64,000 nucleotides of DNA from an uncultured Pseudomonadota bacterium (GTDB lineage Bacteria; Pseudomonadota; Alphaproteobacteria; RF32; CAG-239): NCBI GenBank assembly GCA_902763155.1, contig CACWQS010000002.1, forward strand, positions 62,001 through 126,000. The letters run 5' to 3'. A program made the position numbers and the translations under genes. Positions 53,790-64,000 of this stretch are shown piece after piece. Below the pieces are notes generated by a model. It made no database searches, was not told the origin of the DNA, and was given only the letters and a program-made list of their open reading frames with translations. Position 1 is the stretch's first letter; each line of letters starts with the position of its first letter.

Positions 53790-53955
53790 ACCAAACTATA
53801 ATTATTTTATGCCTTAGACGTATGTGTGACATTAGATGAATTTTTAATTAAAAAAATCATTGCATAATTATTTGAAATACCATATTTTTATTTCTAGCAA
53901 GAAAATCAGCTTTGAGAAGTAAATATTATATTATAAATAGCGGAGCGTGACATAC

Positions 53956-55446
53956 ATGAATAAGACAGAACTTGAAACCTTTATTAAAAATCAACGAGCT
54001 GTTTCTTCTAAACAAATTGTAAAACATTTTACTGACTTAGGAGAAAGAGCAGATACAGTAAGAAAAGCAATATCAAGACTCCATTCTCCTTATATGCGAT
54101 TAAAATATATTCGCTTAGCAAACAACGCCCAAATCCTGTATCATAAAGATAACTGGCTCACTACAGATTTTTATGAAACTGTTGTTGAAATTTTAAAAGA
54201 GGAGAATTCTATTTATGGTGCAGTATTGGAAGCAATAAAGGCCCGAGGAGGTTATGTCTTCGAAAAATATTTTCCCATATTATCGGGAACTGGAGAACAA
54301 AAAAATCACATTTGGCCTTCTCAAATAAAAGATAATTTAGTTATTTCAAAATTACTCATTGAAGATAATATAGAAAATTTTGGAAAGATATTATATTTAC
54401 CTGAACGTCAGACAGATAATATTGCTACACTTGTACGTGCAGATTGTGTACAAGAGCAGGTAATGCTACAAATTATGGAGAATTGGCTAAAAAAATTAAA
54501 CTTTATTACCTATAACCAAATATGCCATAAAAACCTGGATAATGATTTACCTAAATTTGCAACTACTTATTGGGACTTAACTTCACCATCTTATTTATTA
54601 CCATTAATGAAAAATAATAAACAAGGATCTGTCATTTGCGATTTGTTTTTAAAAGAAATTTCTGATGTTTCTCAAGTACAATATATTCTCAAAAAACTAG
54701 AATTACTATCTGTGCAAAAAAATATATCTAGGTACTTACCTATAATTATTTCACCAAATTTTTCTCAAGATGTATTTAAAGTATTGAAAGGACATGGAAT
54801 AATACCAGCTACCTTTAGTAATTTATTTGGAAAAGAAACTGCTGACTTATTTAGAGAACTATATATTTCACTACAAAATTTAACAGCAGCTATAATAAAG
54901 GATCCAAAGAAACAATATACTATTTTTGAAAAAATTGCTCGCTTTGAAAGTATCGCCAATCAAATAAGAGGACCTTTATTTGAAATGATTTGTGTGCATT
55001 TAGTTCACAGCATGAAAAACGGACTTATTGAAAATGGAAAAAACATATTTTGCAATCAGTTGAAAAAATCCCTTGAAATAGATATTATTAATGAAAGTCC
55101 AAGGGAAATATTTATTGTTGAATGTAAAGGATATTTGCCACATAATTTAGTAAGCTATGAAGAAGTAAGAAAATGGCTAGATAATATCACACATATCAGA
55201 AGAAGTCTTATTTCCGCAAATGAAGAAAGAAACAATAAAAAATTCATTTTTAATTTTTGGACATCAAGCGATTTTGATAAAGATGCTATAGAGTTATTCA
55301 GTGAAAGACATAGTAATTTATTGGAGATTCATTGGAAAAATGGAGATGAATTTATGCAAAAGTTGAAAGAATACAAATTAACCGGAGCTCAGAAGATGCT
55401 AAATGACTATTTTATTAAAAATTTTTTAGATAAACAATTATCTTAG
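53956..55446 (+). CDS. wHTH / PD-(D/E)XK-like nuclease, probable defence protein
   Basis: A 496-residue protein, start ATG 53956 (GGAG upstream) rather than GTG 53947. The first 70 residues (KQIVKHFTDLGERADTVRKAISRL) look like a winged helix. Near the end, EIDIINESPREIFIVECKGY has the Asp376, Glu389-x-Lys391 spacing of PD-(D/E)XK nucleases. The middle is helical and unknown. The gene converges on TcmP and DUF5131 genes. No known homologue is named with confidence. A restriction or abortive-infection role is inferred from nuclease motif and context. Confidence 0.7.
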   Translation: MNKTELETFIKNQRAVSSKQIVKHFTDLGERADTVRKAISRLHSPYMRLKYIRLANNAQILYHKDNWLTTDFYETVVEILKEENSIYGAVLEAIKARGGYVFEKYFPILSGTGEQKNHIWPSQIKDNLVISKLLIEDNIENFGKILYLPERQTDNIATLVRADCVQEQVMLQIMENWLKKLNFITYNQICHKNLDNDLPKFATTYWDLTSPSYLLPLMKNNKQGSVICDLFLKEISDVSQVQYILKKLELLSVQKNISRYLPIIISPNFSQDVFKVLKGHGIIPATFSNLFGKETADLFRELYISLQNLTAAIIKDPKKQYTIFEKIARFESIANQIRGPLFEMICVHLVHSMKNGLIENGKNIFCNQLKKSLEIDIINESPREIFIVECKGYLPHNLVSYEEVRKWLDNITHIRRSLISANEERNNKKFIFNFWTSSDFDKDAIELFSERHSNLLEIHWKNGDEFMQKLKEYKLTGAQKMLNDYFIKNFLDKQLS

Positions 55447-57251: not shown

Positions 57252-58859
57252 TTACTCCTCATTCATATTCATTCTGATTTTATACATCTGTATTTGGTTG
57301 GCGAGGTTTTCGTATTCCGGTGCATCAGATTTATCAAACTCAAACCAATTATCGCTATTTTTCAAATTTATCAGCATATCAAATGGTTTTCTAAGTTTAT
57401 ATATCAGTTTTGTGCCGTCTAAGTAGCATTCATTAAGTATAAGCCCAAGCAAATTATTTTGTTGCTCTGGATTCGCTTTTTTCATAATTTCTGACGCACA
57501 AGCCGCAATATCCAAAACTTCATTAACTGTATATTGTATGTCTCTGCTTATATCTGCATATTTTTCCGCAGTGTGCTGTAATTCTTCTCTTTTACTTGCA
57601 ATATTGGCTTTTTCTTCGTTCCATTCTTCACGTGTTATGTCACCATTGAAAAAACAGTCCTTAACTCTCTGCTCTCGTGCTTCCAATTGGTTTAATTCAC
57701 AGGTAATCTGTCTTTTCATTACCGCATTAGCCTCTGAATCTTCCGTCATTTTCTTAATTACACATTTTTTGAGTAAATCAATAATGTTTGCATTTAGCCT
57801 GATTTTACTGAACACTTCATCATCAAGTTGCTGTAAAATAAGCGATTCTCTAACTGTTTTCTGATTGCAATTATCCCTTGGATGAGTACAACGCAAATAT
57901 ACGTAACCTTTATGATGTTCAGATGATATGGTACCACCGCATTCCGCACATTTTATTAATTTACGAAAAGCAAATGATATACCACCATATTCTCTAGTCG
58001 GCATAGATGCATTTTTACCTGACAATATGTCCTGCACTTTATCAAATAAAGCTTTTGATATAATTGGCTCGTATCTATGTGGCATTATTTCACCACGAAT
58101 ACGCATTTCTCCGTAGTAAAATGAATTCTTAAGCATATTCCAGATAGTTTCTCGGCCCAGAGGTTTATGATTTTTACTTCTGATTGAACATAAATTTATT
58201 TCTTCTGCAAATTTTTTTAGGCTTTTTATGGAATAACAACCGGTTGCGTACATTTCAAACATCTTTTTAACCAAAGGAGCACGTTCCGGATCTACAACAA
58301 TCGTTGCCGGTGTAGTTTTAGTTTTTGGTACATTTAAGTATCCGACAGGAGATTTTGATTGGTATTCACCATTAGACCATTTATACTCCATACCGCGATT
58401 AACATTATCTCTCAAGTTTGCAACATACATTTTGCCGGATAAAATGCCCATGTCCCAACGCATAATATCTGCTGAAGAACTATTTTTAGTCAGTATCAAG
58501 TCTTCTTTACAAAAATGTATATCAATCTTATCATCAAGAAGTAGCGTCTCAACTTCAACACATTCATTGAAACGACGTTGAAAGCGATCAATACAATGCA
58601 CAACAACAGCTGTTTTCTTTTTCTGCTTGCGAACGAAATCTAACATTTGATGAAAAACAATACGTTTACCATTGGTTGAACTTTCAATAGCCCTGTATTT
58701 ATTCAAAATTTTCAAACCTTTTTTAGCACAATACTCTTCCATTGCGACTTTCTGTGCATCCAAAGAAGCTCCCGGTTCCTGTTCTTTGGTAGATACTCTC
58801 GCAAAAATTATAGCCTGTTCGCATGGTGCAGCTTTTGCATATCTATATTTTTTTGCCAT
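57252..58859 (-). CDS. Large serine recombinase
   Basis: A 535-residue large serine recombinase (integrase or invertase). The catalytic domain has AIIFARVSTKEQ with nucleophile Ser23 and VVVHCIDRFQRRFNE (Arg cluster). A recombinase domain (about 170-290) with FYYGEMRIRGEIMPHRYEPIIS follows, then a zinc ribbon (CAECGGTI and RCTHPRDNC, near residues 318-345) and a coiled coil (about 360-450). All parts expected for an active phiC31/TnpX-like enzyme are present. An AAAGGAGAG site precedes the start. The promoter lies between inverted repeats (58874-58943). Confidence 0.93.
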   Translation of the reverse strand: MAKKYRYAKAAPCEQAIIFARVSTKEQEPGASLDAQKVAMEEYCAKKGLKILNKYRAIESSTNGKRIVFHQMLDFVRKQKKKTAVVVHCIDRFQRRFNECVEVETLLLDDKIDIHFCKEDLILTKNSSSADIMRWDMGILSGKMYVANLRDNVNRGMEYKWSNGEYQSKSPVGYLNVPKTKTTPATIVVDPERAPLVKKMFEMYATGCYSIKSLKKFAEEINLCSIRSKNHKPLGRETIWNMLKNSFYYGEMRIRGEIMPHRYEPIISKALFDKVQDILSGKNASMPTREYGGISFAFRKLIKCAECGGTISSEHHKGYVYLRCTHPRDNCNQKTVRESLILQQLDDEVFSKIRLNANIIDLLKKCVIKKMTEDSEANAVMKRQITCELNQLEAREQRVKDCFFNGDITREEWNEEKANIASKREELQHTAEKYADISRDIQYTVNEVLDIAACASEIMKKANPEQQNNLLGLILNECYLDGTKLIYKLRKPFDMLINLKNSDNWFEFDKSDAPEYENLANQIQMYKIRMNMNEE

Positions 58860-58998: not shown

Positions 58999-59787
58999 TC
59001 AATGTGTGCGCTTAGCTAATACTTCCTGCACTCTATCAAATGTTGATTTATTAATAAAAGTAGGATAGTTGTGGTAATAAAGCTTTCCTTTCCAGCGTTG
59101 CATACCGTAATAGAATGGATTTTTGAGTATATCGTTTACACAGGTTTTTGAAACAGGCACACCTTTCTTGTTTTTCAATCCCAAAACATGTGCTAATTCG
59201 GTTAATTCTTTTATTGTATACAACTCTGTCTCATAAGCCATAAACAATTTCGCAATGATGGAAGCTGCCTTAGGCTCTACAACAACATTCGAGTGACCGG
59301 AAGCATCTCGAGTATTTTTATAACCAATAGGAGCCAAATGCATAAGATATCCCTGTTTTACATAATAGATTTGTGCTTTTTTTATGTTATTATTATACCA
59401 TTGAATACAATACACATTTGAAGTCATCATTAAATAACTATTTCTTTTATCAATAATTAGTGCTTCTTCATATGAATGTATAGTTACTTTGCCACCTATT
59501 ACAAGATTTTTAAATAAATACATTAAATTAAAATATAGGAATTTAGTTACGATATGAATTTTACCGGTTTGTTCTCTGACAAAAGCAAGCATATCATTTG
59601 CATTTTTTTTAGCATCTCTTGGAGTACATAAATATATTTTTATAACTTCAAGATTCTTGTCGCTACAGTAGTTAATTAGATTATCTATTATATTTTTGCT
59701 CGCTTTTCTTTTAACAGAACAAAAAATTACCGCTTTTTCTCTATTCGGACCAAAATTTTCTTCATCACCAAATATTATATTTTTCAT
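58999..59787 (-). CDS. Serine recombinase paralogue without catalytic serine
   Basis: A 262-residue protein related to the next gene. The N-terminal region aligned with the catalytic domain reads VIFCSVKRKAS instead of IFARVSTKEQ, so the Arg and Ser of ARVS are replaced (Ser24, Lys26), and the Arg cluster is not seen. The C-terminal recombinase-domain part is kept: YYVKQGYLMHLAPIGY, VVVEPKAASIIAKLF and DILKNPFYYGMQRWKGKLY. It stops before the zinc ribbon. It may bind sites or pair with the active recombinase as an accessory factor. It lies just left of the inverted-repeat segment. Confidence 0.8.
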   Translation of the reverse strand: MKNIIFGDEENFGPNREKAVIFCSVKRKASKNIIDNLINYCSDKNLEVIKIYLCTPRDAKKNANDMLAFVREQTGKIHIVTKFLYFNLMYLFKNLVIGGKVTIHSYEEALIIDKRNSYLMMTSNVYCIQWYNNNIKKAQIYYVKQGYLMHLAPIGYKNTRDASGHSNVVVEPKAASIIAKLFMAYETELYTIKELTELAHVLGLKNKKGVPVSKTCVNDILKNPFYYGMQRWKGKLYYHNYPTFINKSTFDRVQEVLAKRTH

Positions 59788-59830
59788 TTTATTTATTCCT
59801 CTTGTTATTATTAACTTTTACATTCACCGG

Positions 59831-59907
59831 TATGTCGAGATTATTTTTATTTGTAAAACCGTTTTTTTTAATGTTTTTCCATTAGTTGACATCAATGTCA
59901 TTTAATG
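59831..59907. repeat. Left arm of a long inverted repeat (IR-L)
   Basis: Starts TATGTCGAGATTA, includes TTGTAAAACCGTTTTT and ends with the near-palindrome TTGACATCAATGTCATTTAA. It matches, in opposite orientation, IR-R at 61475-61556. The inner end overlaps the 3' end of the 62-residue gene. Confidence 0.8.
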
Positions 59908-60070
59908 AAACATCCTCTGTCTTGTCTGATTTTTCGGCTTCGTAAATTGCTTTGGCACCAATCGCAAAAAATTCTATCAATCTGTCTGCCATTTCATTAA
60001 GTTCAGCATCCGTAACGTCGGGATAAAGAACCGATAGCTCTTGAGCGAGCAACTCTTTACAGTTTTTCAT
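59882..60070 (-). CDS. Small hypothetical protein, 62 residues
   Basis: The start at 60070 (MKNCKELLAQELSVLYPDVT) is chosen over an upstream ATG. A helical acidic protein with the pattern of a short two- or three-helix bundle (DAELNEMADRLIEFFAIGAKAI). No known family. The last codons (DIDVN) and stop lie inside the IR-L palindrome, mirroring the Rep-like gene whose stop lies in the other palindrome. An internal gene of the inverted-repeat segment. Confidence 0.65.
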   Translation of the reverse strand: MKNCKELLAQELSVLYPDVTDAELNEMADRLIEFFAIGAKAIYEAEKSDKTEDVSLNDIDVN

Positions 60071-60212
60071 ATTGCATAGAATTTTCGTTGTGTGCATATT
60101 CTACTGATTTAAAGTTCCAATTCTAATTTATAGCAGAATCGCTTTTTACGCGCGGGATTGCTTCATATGGTAGTAGGATTTAGTAGCATTCATAAAATTT
60201 TATCTCTTTCGA

Positions 60213-60237
60213 TTAAATGACACCGATGTCAGTTAAT
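60213..60237. repeat. Third copy of the near-palindromic 24-base motif
   Basis: TTAAATGACACCGATGTCAG, continuing to 60237, matches the palindromes at 59885-59905 and 61478-61500. It lies alone between the small gene and the structured element. The rest of 60071-60449 shows no gene or other structure I can support. Confidence 0.75.
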
Positions 60238-60449
60238 CAGAAAAAATTAATGAAATAGAAATTTTATCTGCGATTTTGTGAAAAAAAGTAATTCTATAAA
60301 AATATGTAGGTTGACTGTCTAACCGTAGCGATTGACCGGTAAAACGGCAAAAGAAGTTCGTTTGGGCTCCTTTGTGTTTAATTATTAAGATATGAATTAA
60401 AATATGGATCTGATAAATGTTTGTATAAATCAATACTAATCTAGAAAAT

Positions 60450-60690
60450 GCAGAAGAAGTAGCAGTTGGTATATAGCAGTTAAGTCTGACTTATAACAGC
60501 AGAATACAACAAGCTGAAGTCAAATCAGATACACAATGACAAGATGTCTCTATGTATCGCAAATGACTGAAAGCTGTAAAAGTCTGCGTCGCCAATAGAG
60601 CTGATGACAAGATAGCCAGTAGCTGAGATGTCATTATCGTTACGGCGACATAAGCAGACTTAAGCATACTCTGACTGTTGCTTCTTCTTT
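60450..60690 (+). ncRNA. Candidate structured RNA or replication origin
   Basis: A closed stem pairs 60452-60466 with 60674-60688; all 15 pairs hold as RNA, the two non-Watson-Crick pairs being G-U. Inside, AAGTCTGC (60580-60587) pairs with 60654-60661 and GTCGCC (60588-60593) with GGCGAC (60644-60649), with a four-base bulge. Smaller arms are ATGACA (60604-60609)/TGTCAT (60629-60634) and AGCT...GTCA (60512-60522)/TGAC...AGCT (60564-60575). It lies about 290 bases before the Rep-like gene. It could be a noncoding RNA or an origin; strand is uncertain. Confidence 0.55.
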
Positions 60691-60979
60691 ATCTGTTTAT
60701 CTGAATATCTTATTACTTCTTTCTATTATTCTATCCATACATATTATGCTTTTTACTATAACTGAAAATAAAGTAATATTGTAGCGAGATTTTTAGGCAA
60801 TTTATAAACTTTATCCGGTAAATAGTTAACACGTCTTCTATCCTCAAATGTTTGGAATAATCATCAATACAAGTCAAATTGCTATCCTTAGGACTCATTG
60901 AACGCCGTTCGGCAAGCCTCTTTTTATGAAAATGGTAAATTGTCAGCCAAAATTAAATTCGTTGTTATGGAGTCAAAAA

Positions 60980-61483
60980 ATGAACAATCTTAAAAAAACA
61001 CAAAAATTAAAAAATATCATTAATCGTTGGATGCAGTCATATAATCCTACCCATTTTCTGACAGTGAGATTGCCGGAGCATATAGAATCAGCTAATTTTG
61101 ATATATCGCAACGAATCTTAAAGAGAGTTATGGCAGCTTTTGAATATCGTTTGCTTGGCCGGCATTGGCATAAAAAGCATTTACCATTTATTGTGGCTAC
61201 AGAGAAAGGACATGGAACTGTTTGGCATTATCATATATTATTTAACCAGCAGACATTTAGCGAAGAAAGCTTAAATCTAGCCATATTCAGGACAATTACA
61301 GCGTTAAGATATCCATTTTATTCATTGGAACTGGAGAAAATTATGCAATATAAAGATTATGTTATCACATATTGCTCAAAAGAAATCCGTATTAAACAGT
61401 TTGATACTTCCGAGAGCGATAAAATAATCCCATCGCATGTATTGTTTGATATACCTGTCAAAAATCAAAATCCGATTAATTGA
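60980..61483 (+). CDS. HUH-type Rep-like protein
   Basis: A 167-residue protein; start ATG 60980 with GGAG seven bases upstream (a longer frame begins at 60926). Motif I is FLTVRL (about 26-31), motif II is WHYHILF (His83, His85), the HUH metal pair, and a Tyr set lies in YKDYVITYCSKE (Tyr124, Tyr127, Tyr131), one of which would be the DNA-joining Tyr. This matches the small rolling-circle Rep group seen in plasmids and inovirus-like elements. The stop lies in the IR-R palindrome. It is the main enzyme of the 1.7-kb segment. Confidence 0.75.
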   Translation: MNNLKKTQKLKNIINRWMQSYNPTHFLTVRLPEHIESANFDISQRILKRVMAAFEYRLLGRHWHKKHLPFIVATEKGHGTVWHYHILFNQQTFSEESLNLAIFRTITALRYPFYSLELEKIMQYKDYVITYCSKEIRIKQFDTSESDKIIPSHVLFDIPVKNQNPIN

Positions 61484-61556
61484 CATCAACGTCATTTAAT
61501 GGAATTGGAAAAATAATTTTAAAAACGGTTTTACAATTCAATAAAGTCACGACATA
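61475..61556. repeat. Right arm of the long inverted repeat (IR-R)
   Basis: Inverse of IR-L: near-palindrome 61475-61500, then AAAAACGGTTTTACAA, ending CGACATA at 61550-61556. Together the arms bound 59831-61556. The 61557-61728 stretch holds only the terminator below. Confidence 0.8.
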
Positions 61557-61634
61557 TCTGCATTATCAGAGCGATTAAGCTGTTATAAATCATCGTGAAT
61601 ATGTAAAAAAATGTTGGTATGGACTTAAAAAATG

Positions 61635-61703
61635 GCCCTATACAATCAAGTTTTATCTCTACTGATTAGTTTATAGTAAAAAATAAATCTATGCGTATAG
61701 GGC
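61635..61703 (-). terminator. Terminator-like inverted repeat after the DUF3768 gene
   Basis: On the minus strand 61695-61703 pairs with 61635-61643 (nine bases, GCCCTATAC) around a 51-base loop, followed by a T run at 61625-61632. The wide loop makes it an unusual terminator. Confidence 0.5.
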
Positions 61704-61728
61704 TGAAAAACAAGCTTTTGTGTTTGTG

Positions 61729-62046
61729 TTACCATTCATATACAGTCATGATAGTCAAAACTCTATTGGTTATATCAGGATTAGAAGGGTCCTCAGACAT
61801 ATACTTGTGATTTAGGTCATAATAATCTATTTTCCATAAGATTTTTTCACCTTTATAGTCAAAACTTCCAAAATCATGTTCTTTATAAGGGTCATTTCCT
61901 TCATTAAAATCATTGAAATTCCGCACCATTGATATGATATTTGCCTTATCTTCTGAACTCATGGCAGCAATACCGGCGGTCAAAAGTACCTGACCACCGA
62001 TAAATGTATGCCTAAAATTATCATTTAATGTTGCAATATAAGTCAT
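61729..62046 (-). CDS. DUF3768 protein
   Basis: A 105-residue protein of the DUF3768 family, common on plasmids and integrative elements of alphaproteobacteria. Marks: ATLNDNFRHTFIGGQVLLTAGI, NDPYKEHDFGSFDYKGEKI and the end WKIDYYDLNHKYMSEDPSNP then TNRVLTIMTVYEW. Function unknown. The start overlaps the stop of the 90-residue gene by one base (TAATG), so the operon is translationally coupled. Its presence supports a mobile origin of this region. Confidence 0.88.
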   Translation of the reverse strand: MTYIATLNDNFRHTFIGGQVLLTAGIAAMSSEDKANIISMVRNFNDFNEGNDPYKEHDFGSFDYKGEKILWKIDYYDLNHKYMSEDPSNPDITNRVLTIMTVYEW

Positions 62047-62318
62047 TAGTTAGCACTTCCAAATTTGATGTTGGTTTCTGATAAAAATTCAGCAAAACGA
62101 CGTAAAGCATTTATCACGCTACTATGGCTTCTCTTGCCATAAGATGACTTTTTACCGGTATTTTCATATTGTGGCATTATCTCAGCTAAATGTTGTGCAA
62201 GATGTTCATAAGAGATTTTTTCTTTACGGCAAAGTCTTTCTAAACGTGCCGGATAGTCAATAGAAGTTGTAGGTCTGTAATTCTTTGCTAAGAGATATTC
62301 TTCAAATTGTTTTTGCAT
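62046..62318 (-). CDS. Small protein resembling a phage-integrase SAM-like domain
   Basis: A 90-residue protein starting MQKQFEEYLLAKNYRPTTSI. The pattern of helices, with HSSVINALRRFAEFL at the end, resembles the N-terminal core-binding domain of tyrosine recombinases but there is no catalytic domain. It may be a DNA-binding accessory factor or a fragment. It is between the 45-residue gene and DUF3768 in one operon with good ribosome sites. The assignment is by pattern only. Confidence 0.55.
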   Translation of the reverse strand: MQKQFEEYLLAKNYRPTTSIDYPARLERLCRKEKISYEHLAQHLAEIMPQYENTGKKSSYGKRSHSSVINALRRFAEFLSETNIKFGSAN

Positions 62319-62717: not shown

Positions 62718-63392
62718 TTAAAGTTCTAGCTTTCTACCTTTGTGTTTATCAGATTTTGAGCTATTCTCTGATAAAGGTTGTATAGTATTATCTTTAATAT
62801 TTCTACGCCTTCCAGAAGAAGTTACTGTTGTCGTAATTGTTCCTGTGTTAGAATCAGATACAGAAGAAATATTGAAATTACTCGGTTCATTAACTTCTGA
62901 TTTTATATTTGTTTCTACATAAACATTAATGTTTTTTGATTCAAGCAAGGATTTTACATTTTCCAAATATTGGGCAGAAGAAAAAACAGAAACATTTATT
63001 TGAGCTATTAATTTTTTATCCTTATCAAATATATTAATAGCAGATATTTTATTTTTAAGAAATTCATTTTTATCCATAGTTGCATAACTTATATCAGTCC
63101 ATGGTATCTTAAATTTTCCAAAAACTGATCTATATTTAGATTTGATAGCTGAACTACCAGACAAATATACATCATATATTTCTAATCGATTAGTGCTATA
63201 TATAATTGTAATTGTAGGAATCAGAAGCATTGGAACCACACAAATAAGCAGTATATCCATCGTTGCCAAGAATGTTATTTTAGTAGATATTGATATTACC
63301 AGAATCAATATTGTAAAAATCAAATACATTATTACACACTTAGAAAATTTCTTTTTAGCATATGTATCTTCTATAATTTCTATCGCTTTCAT
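62718..63392 (-). CDS. Hypothetical membrane protein, two helices
   Basis: A 224-residue protein. Two membrane helices lie at about residues 18-38 and 42-64, followed by a cytosolic strand-rich region (about 70-150, PH-domain-like in pattern: LEIYDVYLSG, FKIPWTDISYATM) and a disordered Ser/Thr-rich tail with a basic end. I do not recognise a family. It lies 20 bases downstream of the AAA ATPase gene on the same strand, so it is probably cotranscribed with it and may be its membrane partner. Confidence 0.7.
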   Translation of the reverse strand: MKAIEIIEDTYAKKKFSKCVIMYLIFTILILVISISTKITFLATMDILLICVVPMLLIPTITIIYSTNRLEIYDVYLSGSSAIKSKYRSVFGKFKIPWTDISYATMDKNEFLKNKISAINIFDKDKKLIAQINVSVFSSAQYLENVKSLLESKNINVYVETNIKSEVNEPSNFNISSVSDSNTGTITTTVTSSGRRRNIKDNTIQPLSENSSKSDKHKGRKLEL

Positions 63393-63412
63393 CTTATACC
63401 TCTTATATTTGA

Positions 63413-64000
63413 TTATAAATCTATTCTTCTGCCACCTAAAGAACTTGGTTTATCACTTGCCTTAATAGATACAGATGCACTTATGGCATTTTCATTTGCC
63501 CAATTTCTCAATTCCTTAAAATCTTCTATGCGCATTTTAGCCATAGGTACCATTCTTTTTAATACAATATTAAAATCATCCATGGATAAATCAGCATCTG
63601 CATCACCATTGGTTTTGCGAGCATATGCTTCCATTAGTGAATCCTTTACCCATGCTTCTATTTCAGCACCGGATAAACGAATGCTTTCACCTAAATTTTC
63701 TTCTCCAGAAAGTTCAGCTAGCCTAGCAATATCAAAACTAGATATATCTCTATTTAATTTGCTGATGTGGATTTCTAAAATCTTTTTGCGTTCTTCAAAA
63801 TCAGGTAAATCAACAAAGAAAATCTCATCAAAACGGCCTTTTCTCAATAACTCAGGAGGCAAATTTCTTATATTATTAGCTGTTGCAAAAGTAAATACCG
63901 GAGAAGTCTTATCTTGCATCCATGTCAAAATATTACCAAAAACTCTTGATGTCGTTCCACCGTCACCACCGCTTCCTGATAGCCCTTTCTCAATTTCATC
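63413..64000 (-). CDS. Ycf46-like AAA ATPase, C-terminal part
   Basis: Only the C-terminal region is inside the window; the gene continues past base 64000. Reading through the edge gives DEIEKGLSGSGG (Walker B), then GTTSRVFGNILTWMQDK, PVFTFATANNIRNLPPELLR (sensor 1 and arginine-finger region) and KGRFDEIFFVDLPDFEERK. These match the Ycf46-type AAA ATPases. The lid ends near residues 130-170. Function in bacteria is not well known. The membrane protein gene follows after 20 bases. Confidence 0.88.
   Translation of the reverse strand, partial: DEIEKGLSGSGGDGGTTSRVFGNILTWMQDKTSPVFTFATANNIRNLPPELLRKGRFDEIFFVDLPDFEERKKILEIHISKLNRDISSFDIARLAELSGEENLGESIRLSGAEIEAWVKDSLMEAYARKTNGDADADLSMDDFNIVLKRMVPMAKMRIEDFKELRNWANENAISASVSIKASDKPSSLGGRRIDL

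Follow-up and report, generated by a model that had tools for sequence, protein, structure and literature searches.

Chromosomal HUH enzymes that belong to neither phages nor plasmids are, in most known cases, transposases, relaxases or RAYTs; for TnpA-REP, a proposed action is the recognition of REP hairpins and the movement or exchange of the intervening DNA in single-stranded form. SCC elements have replication genes of their own, which are other than the HUH Rep described below. In RAYT loci, or REPtrons, HUH genes lie between inverted palindromes (PMC2817692), several palindrome families are found per locus, and some classes lack the GT[AG]G foot (PMC6006769). An initial annotation of the DNA studied here held that HUH elements usually lack inverted ends, which misses the RAYT/REPtron case, where the palindromes are inverted (PMC2817692). 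The segment at positions 59831-61556 of the window (the whole stretch of 64,000 nucleotides that was analysed) combines an HUH Rep gene with inverted repeats, and we tentatively interpret it as a composite within a hypervariable, recombinase-carrying island, in which the HUH Rep module might be an optional replication or processing cassette; this reading is plausible, though short of probable.

The window is part of contig C2. The metagenome genome to which this contig belongs measures 1.47 Mb, has a tmRNA of the alphaproteobacterial type and has MAGs of gut and rumen alphaproteobacteria as its nearest named records. The segment lies where gene content changes in the hypervariable island, whose order is candidate defence genes, serine recombinases, rep segment, DUF3768 gene (c4) and c2, followed rightward by a C5-methyltransferase, K6, a copy of the palindrome A discussed below, and lysS. 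An island of the same kind adjacent to lysS is also present in four related genomes. The candidate defence genes are of the DUF5131 and TcmP-like type (PADLOC PDC-M41/M30); the three-Cys-motif-like and DUF5131 protein pair at 55476-57142 matches these PADLOC candidates and is adjoined by a 499-aa ORF (53947-55446) with a sub-threshold match to NERD (nuclease-related). An island cluster at L067 1019-3900, together with window positions 62718-64000, contains an AAA-type ATPase-like ORF, a membrane protein and a radical-SAM 4Fe-4S protein as well as DUF2997, SH3 and metallo-beta-lactamase-like proteins. In the proteins of L067 8811-10817 and K15, an N-terminal region is apparently common to the island C5-methyltransferase and an MT-A70-like methyltransferase.

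The serine recombinases that had been noted beside the segment are indeed there, as a pair on the minus strand. The large one (57252..58859) has Resolvase, Recombinase and zinc ribbon domains and resembles CcrB/XisF with a score far below the equivalog cutoff; an invertase model also matches it weakly, the protein being of the large type and not a small invertase. In the second serine-recombinase-like protein (58999..59787) the Recombinase domain is the only one recognised. To the right of the segment, c4 (61729..62046, minus strand) adjoins c2 (62046..62318, minus strand), which encodes a 90-aa SAM-like domain with weak likeness to the XerC N-terminal domain and occurs in 37 of 128 family genomes.

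The HUH Rep gene occupies 60980..61483 on the plus strand, its ORF being open from 60926; the probable start at 60980 is preceded by GGAG 7 nt upstream, giving a product of 167 aa. The protein matches PF23343 with 28.8 bits (gathering cutoff 27.8, E 1.6e-06), and at E values up to 1 this was its only Pfam match, with neither a Y1 transposase (PF01797) nor a Y2 transposase domain; PHROG and NCBIfam searches gave no match. Rep carries HUH and Y-x-x-K motifs. Across 21 relatives no variation is seen at H83, Y131, K134 or E75 and little at H85 (kept in at least 90%), the catalytic residues being conserved over about 40% identity. The predicted model (pLDDT 79) matches microvirus/G2P Reps in BFVD (best E 3.4e-05) and, as best PDB match, AAV Rep (E 2.2e-03), with low to moderate TM-scores. 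The PF23343 match, the conserved catalytic residues and the predicted Rep-like fold together indicate that Rep is a protein of the HUH replication-initiator type under constraint and not a Y1 or Y2 transposase, and the HUH Rep-like gene of the initial annotation thus proves to be an intact gene of the REP_ORF2/G2P type.

Of 152 family genomes, 28 carry the rep gene, and 35 GTDB loci contain it; the contigs are mostly long and chromosome-like. Searches of phages, plasmids and IMG/VR gave no match to Rep, and we therefore rejected an origin from a phage or plasmid with close relatives. No capsid or other phage gene was recognised beside rep, whose neighbours are c4, c2, the C5-methyltransferase and recombinases, in a scan that covered a minority of the relatives' cargo ORFs. 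With microvirus/G2P Reps as the nearest predicted folds, the segment could be what is left of a single-strand-DNA phage or a rolling-circle plasmid that once integrated and was later retained. We consider this improbable given the lack of a phage, plasmid or PHROG relative and of a recognised capsid gene alongside, the recurrence of the island context in many genera and the conservation of the active site.

Several further rep copies were observed. The source genome holds a diverged second copy (G000:C8:48229-48699, L066) with an in-frame TAG and a copy of c2 7.9 kb off. In G079, which also holds a second rep copy, one copy (L035 92-796) shares 98.6% identity with the G074 copy (L036) across only about 705 bp while the flanks differ, a sequence pattern suggesting that the rep gene alone has recently moved or been duplicated. 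A 3.5-kb contig binned as Helicobacter (L123) holds an alphaproteobacterial methyltransferase-rep locus and is probably misbinned. At L051 (7983-8074 and 8781-8874, with rep turned to the plus strand) and at other loci, direct copies of an element termed D stand on either side of rep. The left copy, D1, overlaps the 5' coding region of rep in relatives; the right copy, D2, forms a strong hairpin, is also present in loci without rep and looks like a derived copy. D as IS200 LE/RE-like transposon ends is doubtful, as D1 overlaps the rep coding start and D2 looks derived.

In front of rep, positions 60450..60690 of the plus strand form a strongly folded, branched element, which may be an RNA leader or ncRNA or a single-strand DNA structure. 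Its folding exceeds that of shuffled sequences with z -6.25 for RNA, -3.80 for DNA and -4.33 for minus-strand RNA, so that the structured element claimed at the outset is real. It includes an arm of the form GTCGCC...TGACA...TGTCA...GGCGAC (60588..60649, plus strand), variable at its tip, which precedes rep in other genera as well (L048, L053, L057, L059, L061, L065 and L123). Away from rep the arm pattern, whose gap limit excludes the group with long tips, gave no match in 128 genomes or in IMG/VR. The folded region is not recognisable in several rep loci, such as G039, G050 and G074. As no Rfam match was found, we rejected a known RNA family. Among the close relatives, pairs with a change on one side are mostly preserved on the plus strand as G-U pairs, and no double compensatory change occurs; distant folded regions were left out of the covariation analysis since MAFFT misaligned their arms. 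The pairing changes favour an RNA on the rep strand, short of proof. That the region is an independent non-coding RNA with the Rep gene as a passenger would fit the preserved G-U pairs of the close group and the better folding of RNA than DNA and of the plus than the minus strand, yet it is a most unlikely explanation in view of the absence of the arm away from rep, the lack of double compensatory changes and the lack of an Rfam match.

A conserved 11-mer, AATTCTATAAA, lies further upstream (60290..60300, plus strand). Loci totalling 1.02 Mb contain it 12 times, nine of them in the same orientation as rep and 170-790 nt before it. In the loci examined it is no general promoter motif; it may be a nick or binding site or a dedicated promoter. 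Some rep loci do not have it. In L117 BLAST homology begins within about 13 bp of AATTCTATAAA; a short AT-rich motif upstream of the 11-mer is common by eye, and a sharp left module boundary at this position is therefore not claimed.

The best reading of the cassette core is a stretch of about 1.3 kb with AATTCTATAAA, the strongly folded leader and the intact HUH Rep gene. Judging from conservation, Rep would nick at or near the conserved site before its gene, the folded region would serve as Rep origin or as a regulatory leader, and rolling-circle copying might apply to the island or to a cassette that the recombinases release. Against the cassette reading stand the fact that no excised or replicating form was encountered, the many c2-carrying islands without rep, the rep loci in which the folded region or the 11-mer is unrecognisable, and the possibility that the putative nick site is a promoter instead.

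The inverted repeats that give the segment its limits are real: positions 59831-59881 and 61506-61556 are 78% complementary across 51 nt, and the top inverted-repeat score of the region is 29, compared to a maximum of 21 in 60 dinucleotide shuffles. The sequence TTGTAAAACCGTTTTT occurs exactly twice, at 59851 (plus) and 61521 (minus), with 0.26 occurrences expected at up to two mismatches. The limits themselves hold only in part, as the right repeat with known relatives runs to about 61605, past 61556. Each repeat consists of two parts, the inner one being palindrome A and the outer one containing GTTTTACA. Palindrome A is the 26-bp near-palindrome ATTAANTGACAYCRAYGTCANTTAAT, with three copies within 1.6 kb (expected 0) and a total of four in the 1.47-Mb genome, the fourth being located at C2:138199. 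Copy 1 (59881..59906) forms the inner part of the left repeat and contains the stop codon of c5, a 71-aa ORF (59882..60097, minus strand) that matches no known family and goes with serine recombinases in relatives. Copy 2 (60212..60237) is situated on the left side of the rep module and is oriented like copy 3 (61475..61500), which forms the inner part of the right repeat and contains the rep stop codon. Thus, both outward-pointing genes end in palindromes as first described, and the symmetric layout applies to the outer pair (59881/61475), whereas copy 2, which had gone unmentioned, and copy 3 are direct repeats around the rep module, inversion being limited to the left copy, which is joined to the leader of the recombinase. 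The palindromes were also considered as intrinsic terminators; this was rejected since no terminator-like site is present in 59700-61800. Some AACY...RGTT palindromes elsewhere are terminator-like.

The outer parts of the repeats were followed with a model built from 61521-61605 by iterated nhmmer. The B repeat (61521..61605, plus strand, E 2.8e-16) follows rep in most relatives, and is also found at the relatives' c4/c2 block and in loci without rep. Its shorter related form B' (59826..59865, minus strand; match to positions 2-41 of the B model) is part of the leader of the two serine-recombinase genes and directly precedes recombinase genes in L053, L054, L060, L061 and L062, as well as in G006 (L099), where B' and c5 have no A between them. 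As far as sequence can tell, the outer left arm is a recombinase leader repeat and the outer right arm belongs to the c4-c2 side; as att sites, B and B' are candidates only. An att-like duplicated 200-bp repeat around the L055 cargo was dismissed as an artefact of gapped alignment, the cargo lying between B and D.

The arm composed of A and GTTTTACA has one further occurrence in the source genome and is present as a single intergenic repeat, with no rep alongside, in the genus-mates G015 and G006; G004 has a degenerate A copy, likewise single and away from rep. Since the arms are found singly elsewhere (in the island, G015 and G006), they do not belong exclusively to one element as its ends. 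Layouts were compared at 21 rep loci from 20 genomes. In most of them rep is near c4-c2, with c4 downstream of rep, and genes vary on both sides while c4-c2 stays. In the window and in G036, rep has c5 and the recombinase on its left, pointing away from it, and a similar position is taken by the G134 recombinase and by c5 of G071; in G131, G129, G050, G074 and G064 both are located right of c4-c2. The c5/recombinase module is thus elsewhere in most relatives, so that 59831-61556 does not constitute a mobile unit that is conserved. The frame with B', A and c5 on the left and A-B on the right nevertheless recurs in G036, which belongs to another genus, and in G035, where a 243-aa gene takes the place of rep between two A copies and remnants of the rep leader remain. 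These cases show exchangeable content within a recurring frame.

The entire segment is present once in its genome, which led us to reject a multi-copy transposon, and no inverted, excised or transposed copy was found among the genomes compared. Inversion of the segment at B/B' by the adjacent serine recombinase would agree with B' and B being related and inverted in both the window and G036. It is nonetheless hardly credible, because the relatives' other layout, rep-B-...-c4-c2-...-c5-B'-recombinase, is not an inversion product of that in the window, the recombinase resembles the large Ccr/XisF type and is no invertase, and no inverted copy was found in related genomes. The initial annotation had also considered a new mobile element bounded by the inverted repeats, to be given up if the arms occurred elsewhere singly and the segment was never found as a unit. 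The first is the case and the second is not (G036, G035), so that the reading as a bounded element is partly right; a new mobile element of this kind is not supported, the arms being single in G015 and G006 and the outer arms being two other blocks. As best read, the inverted repeats would combine junction palindromes with a repeat common to the recombinase leader (B') and the region after rep (B), and would not be transposon ends or the ends of a stand-alone element.

Further palindromes of 26-28 bp (R, E, T and C) cluster in islands of this kind. Genome-wide searches for R and E found copies limited to a few contigs, with 0 matches for reversed-pattern controls, and the palindromes, A included, are almost confined to islands and sited where gene content changes. 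Two rep copies of G134 are homologous as far as palindrome R and diverge just beyond it; in L123 the divergence point lies inside R, in the spacer or right arm. Some of the palindromes are also present in genomes without rep, indicating that rep is associated with the palindromes and not required for their presence.

By analogy with REPtrons, the HUH enzyme might recognise hairpins formed by the palindromes of the island (A, R, E, T, C), and the DNA lying between two of them might be moved or exchanged by it in single-stranded form. This is the main rival of the cassette reading, although we rate it as unlikely. It would account for an HUH gene flanked by palindromes that also stand singly between genes, for the breakpoints at a palindrome in L123 and in the two G134 copies, and for the replacement of rep between A copies in G035; the protein is no Y1 transposase, however, reading of the three A copies found no GT[AG]G (GTAG or GTGG) tetranucleotide at the palindrome foot, and the palindromes number at most about eight copies per genome, are confined to islands and occur in rep-less genomes. 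Alternatively, the palindromes could be sites of a site-specific recombinase with a dif-like 10/11-6-10/11 design, making the HUH Rep one cargo among others. The spacer and arm lengths, the position of the L123 breakpoint within R, the core-binding-like domain of c2, the tyrosine recombinases (K7) in some islands and the palindromes of rep-less islands all point in this direction, but rep is among the commonest island genes, its active site is conserved and no single recombinase goes with all palindromes, so that we regard this alternative as rather unlikely.

An open-literature search of partial coverage for this combination of features retrieved no matching system. It is conceivable, if doubtful as a joint claim, that several island-specific families of 26-28-bp palindromes are processed by an HUH endonuclease of the G2P type, equipped with a folded leader, and that gene cassettes of the hypervariable island are exchanged in this way, which would be a previously undescribed system, a REPtron- or integron-like cassette exchange built on a phage-type Rep. 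Action of Rep on the palindromes, if true, would be a new route of gene-cassette exchange. A chromosomally kept G2P-type Rep with a conserved active site and a folded cis region, in an island whose cargo varies and whose palindromes are specific to it, is a testable example of how such islands may undergo copying or rearrangement via single-stranded DNA. Among known systems, IS91/ISCR elements likewise have an HUH enzyme next to variable cargo but differ by the Y2 transposase domain and the terIS/oriIS pair, neither of which was identified here, and by copy number, which is one to two per genome in this case. SCC elements share a large serine recombinase, a second recombinase-like ORF and variable cargo including candidate defence genes; host and insertion site differ, and an HUH Rep is present here in place of the SCC replication genes. 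The Pfam domain, the predicted fold and the HUH and Y-x-x-K motifs link Rep to microvirus VP4 and filamentous phage G2P (PF23343), whereas its setting is a recurrent chromosomal island with no structural phage genes recognised alongside and no phage relative in the databases. With REPtrons the locus has in common an HUH gene with short flanking palindromes, which also occur singly between genes, and several palindrome families per locus. Membership of the RAYT family itself fails by three sequence features, since neither a Y1 transposase domain nor a GTAG foot was found and the palindromes are not in high copy (four A copies per 1.47 Mb): the Rep of this locus is of the PF23343 (G2P/microvirus) type and not Y1, its palindromes are restricted to the island in few copies, and it is accompanied by a folded leader.
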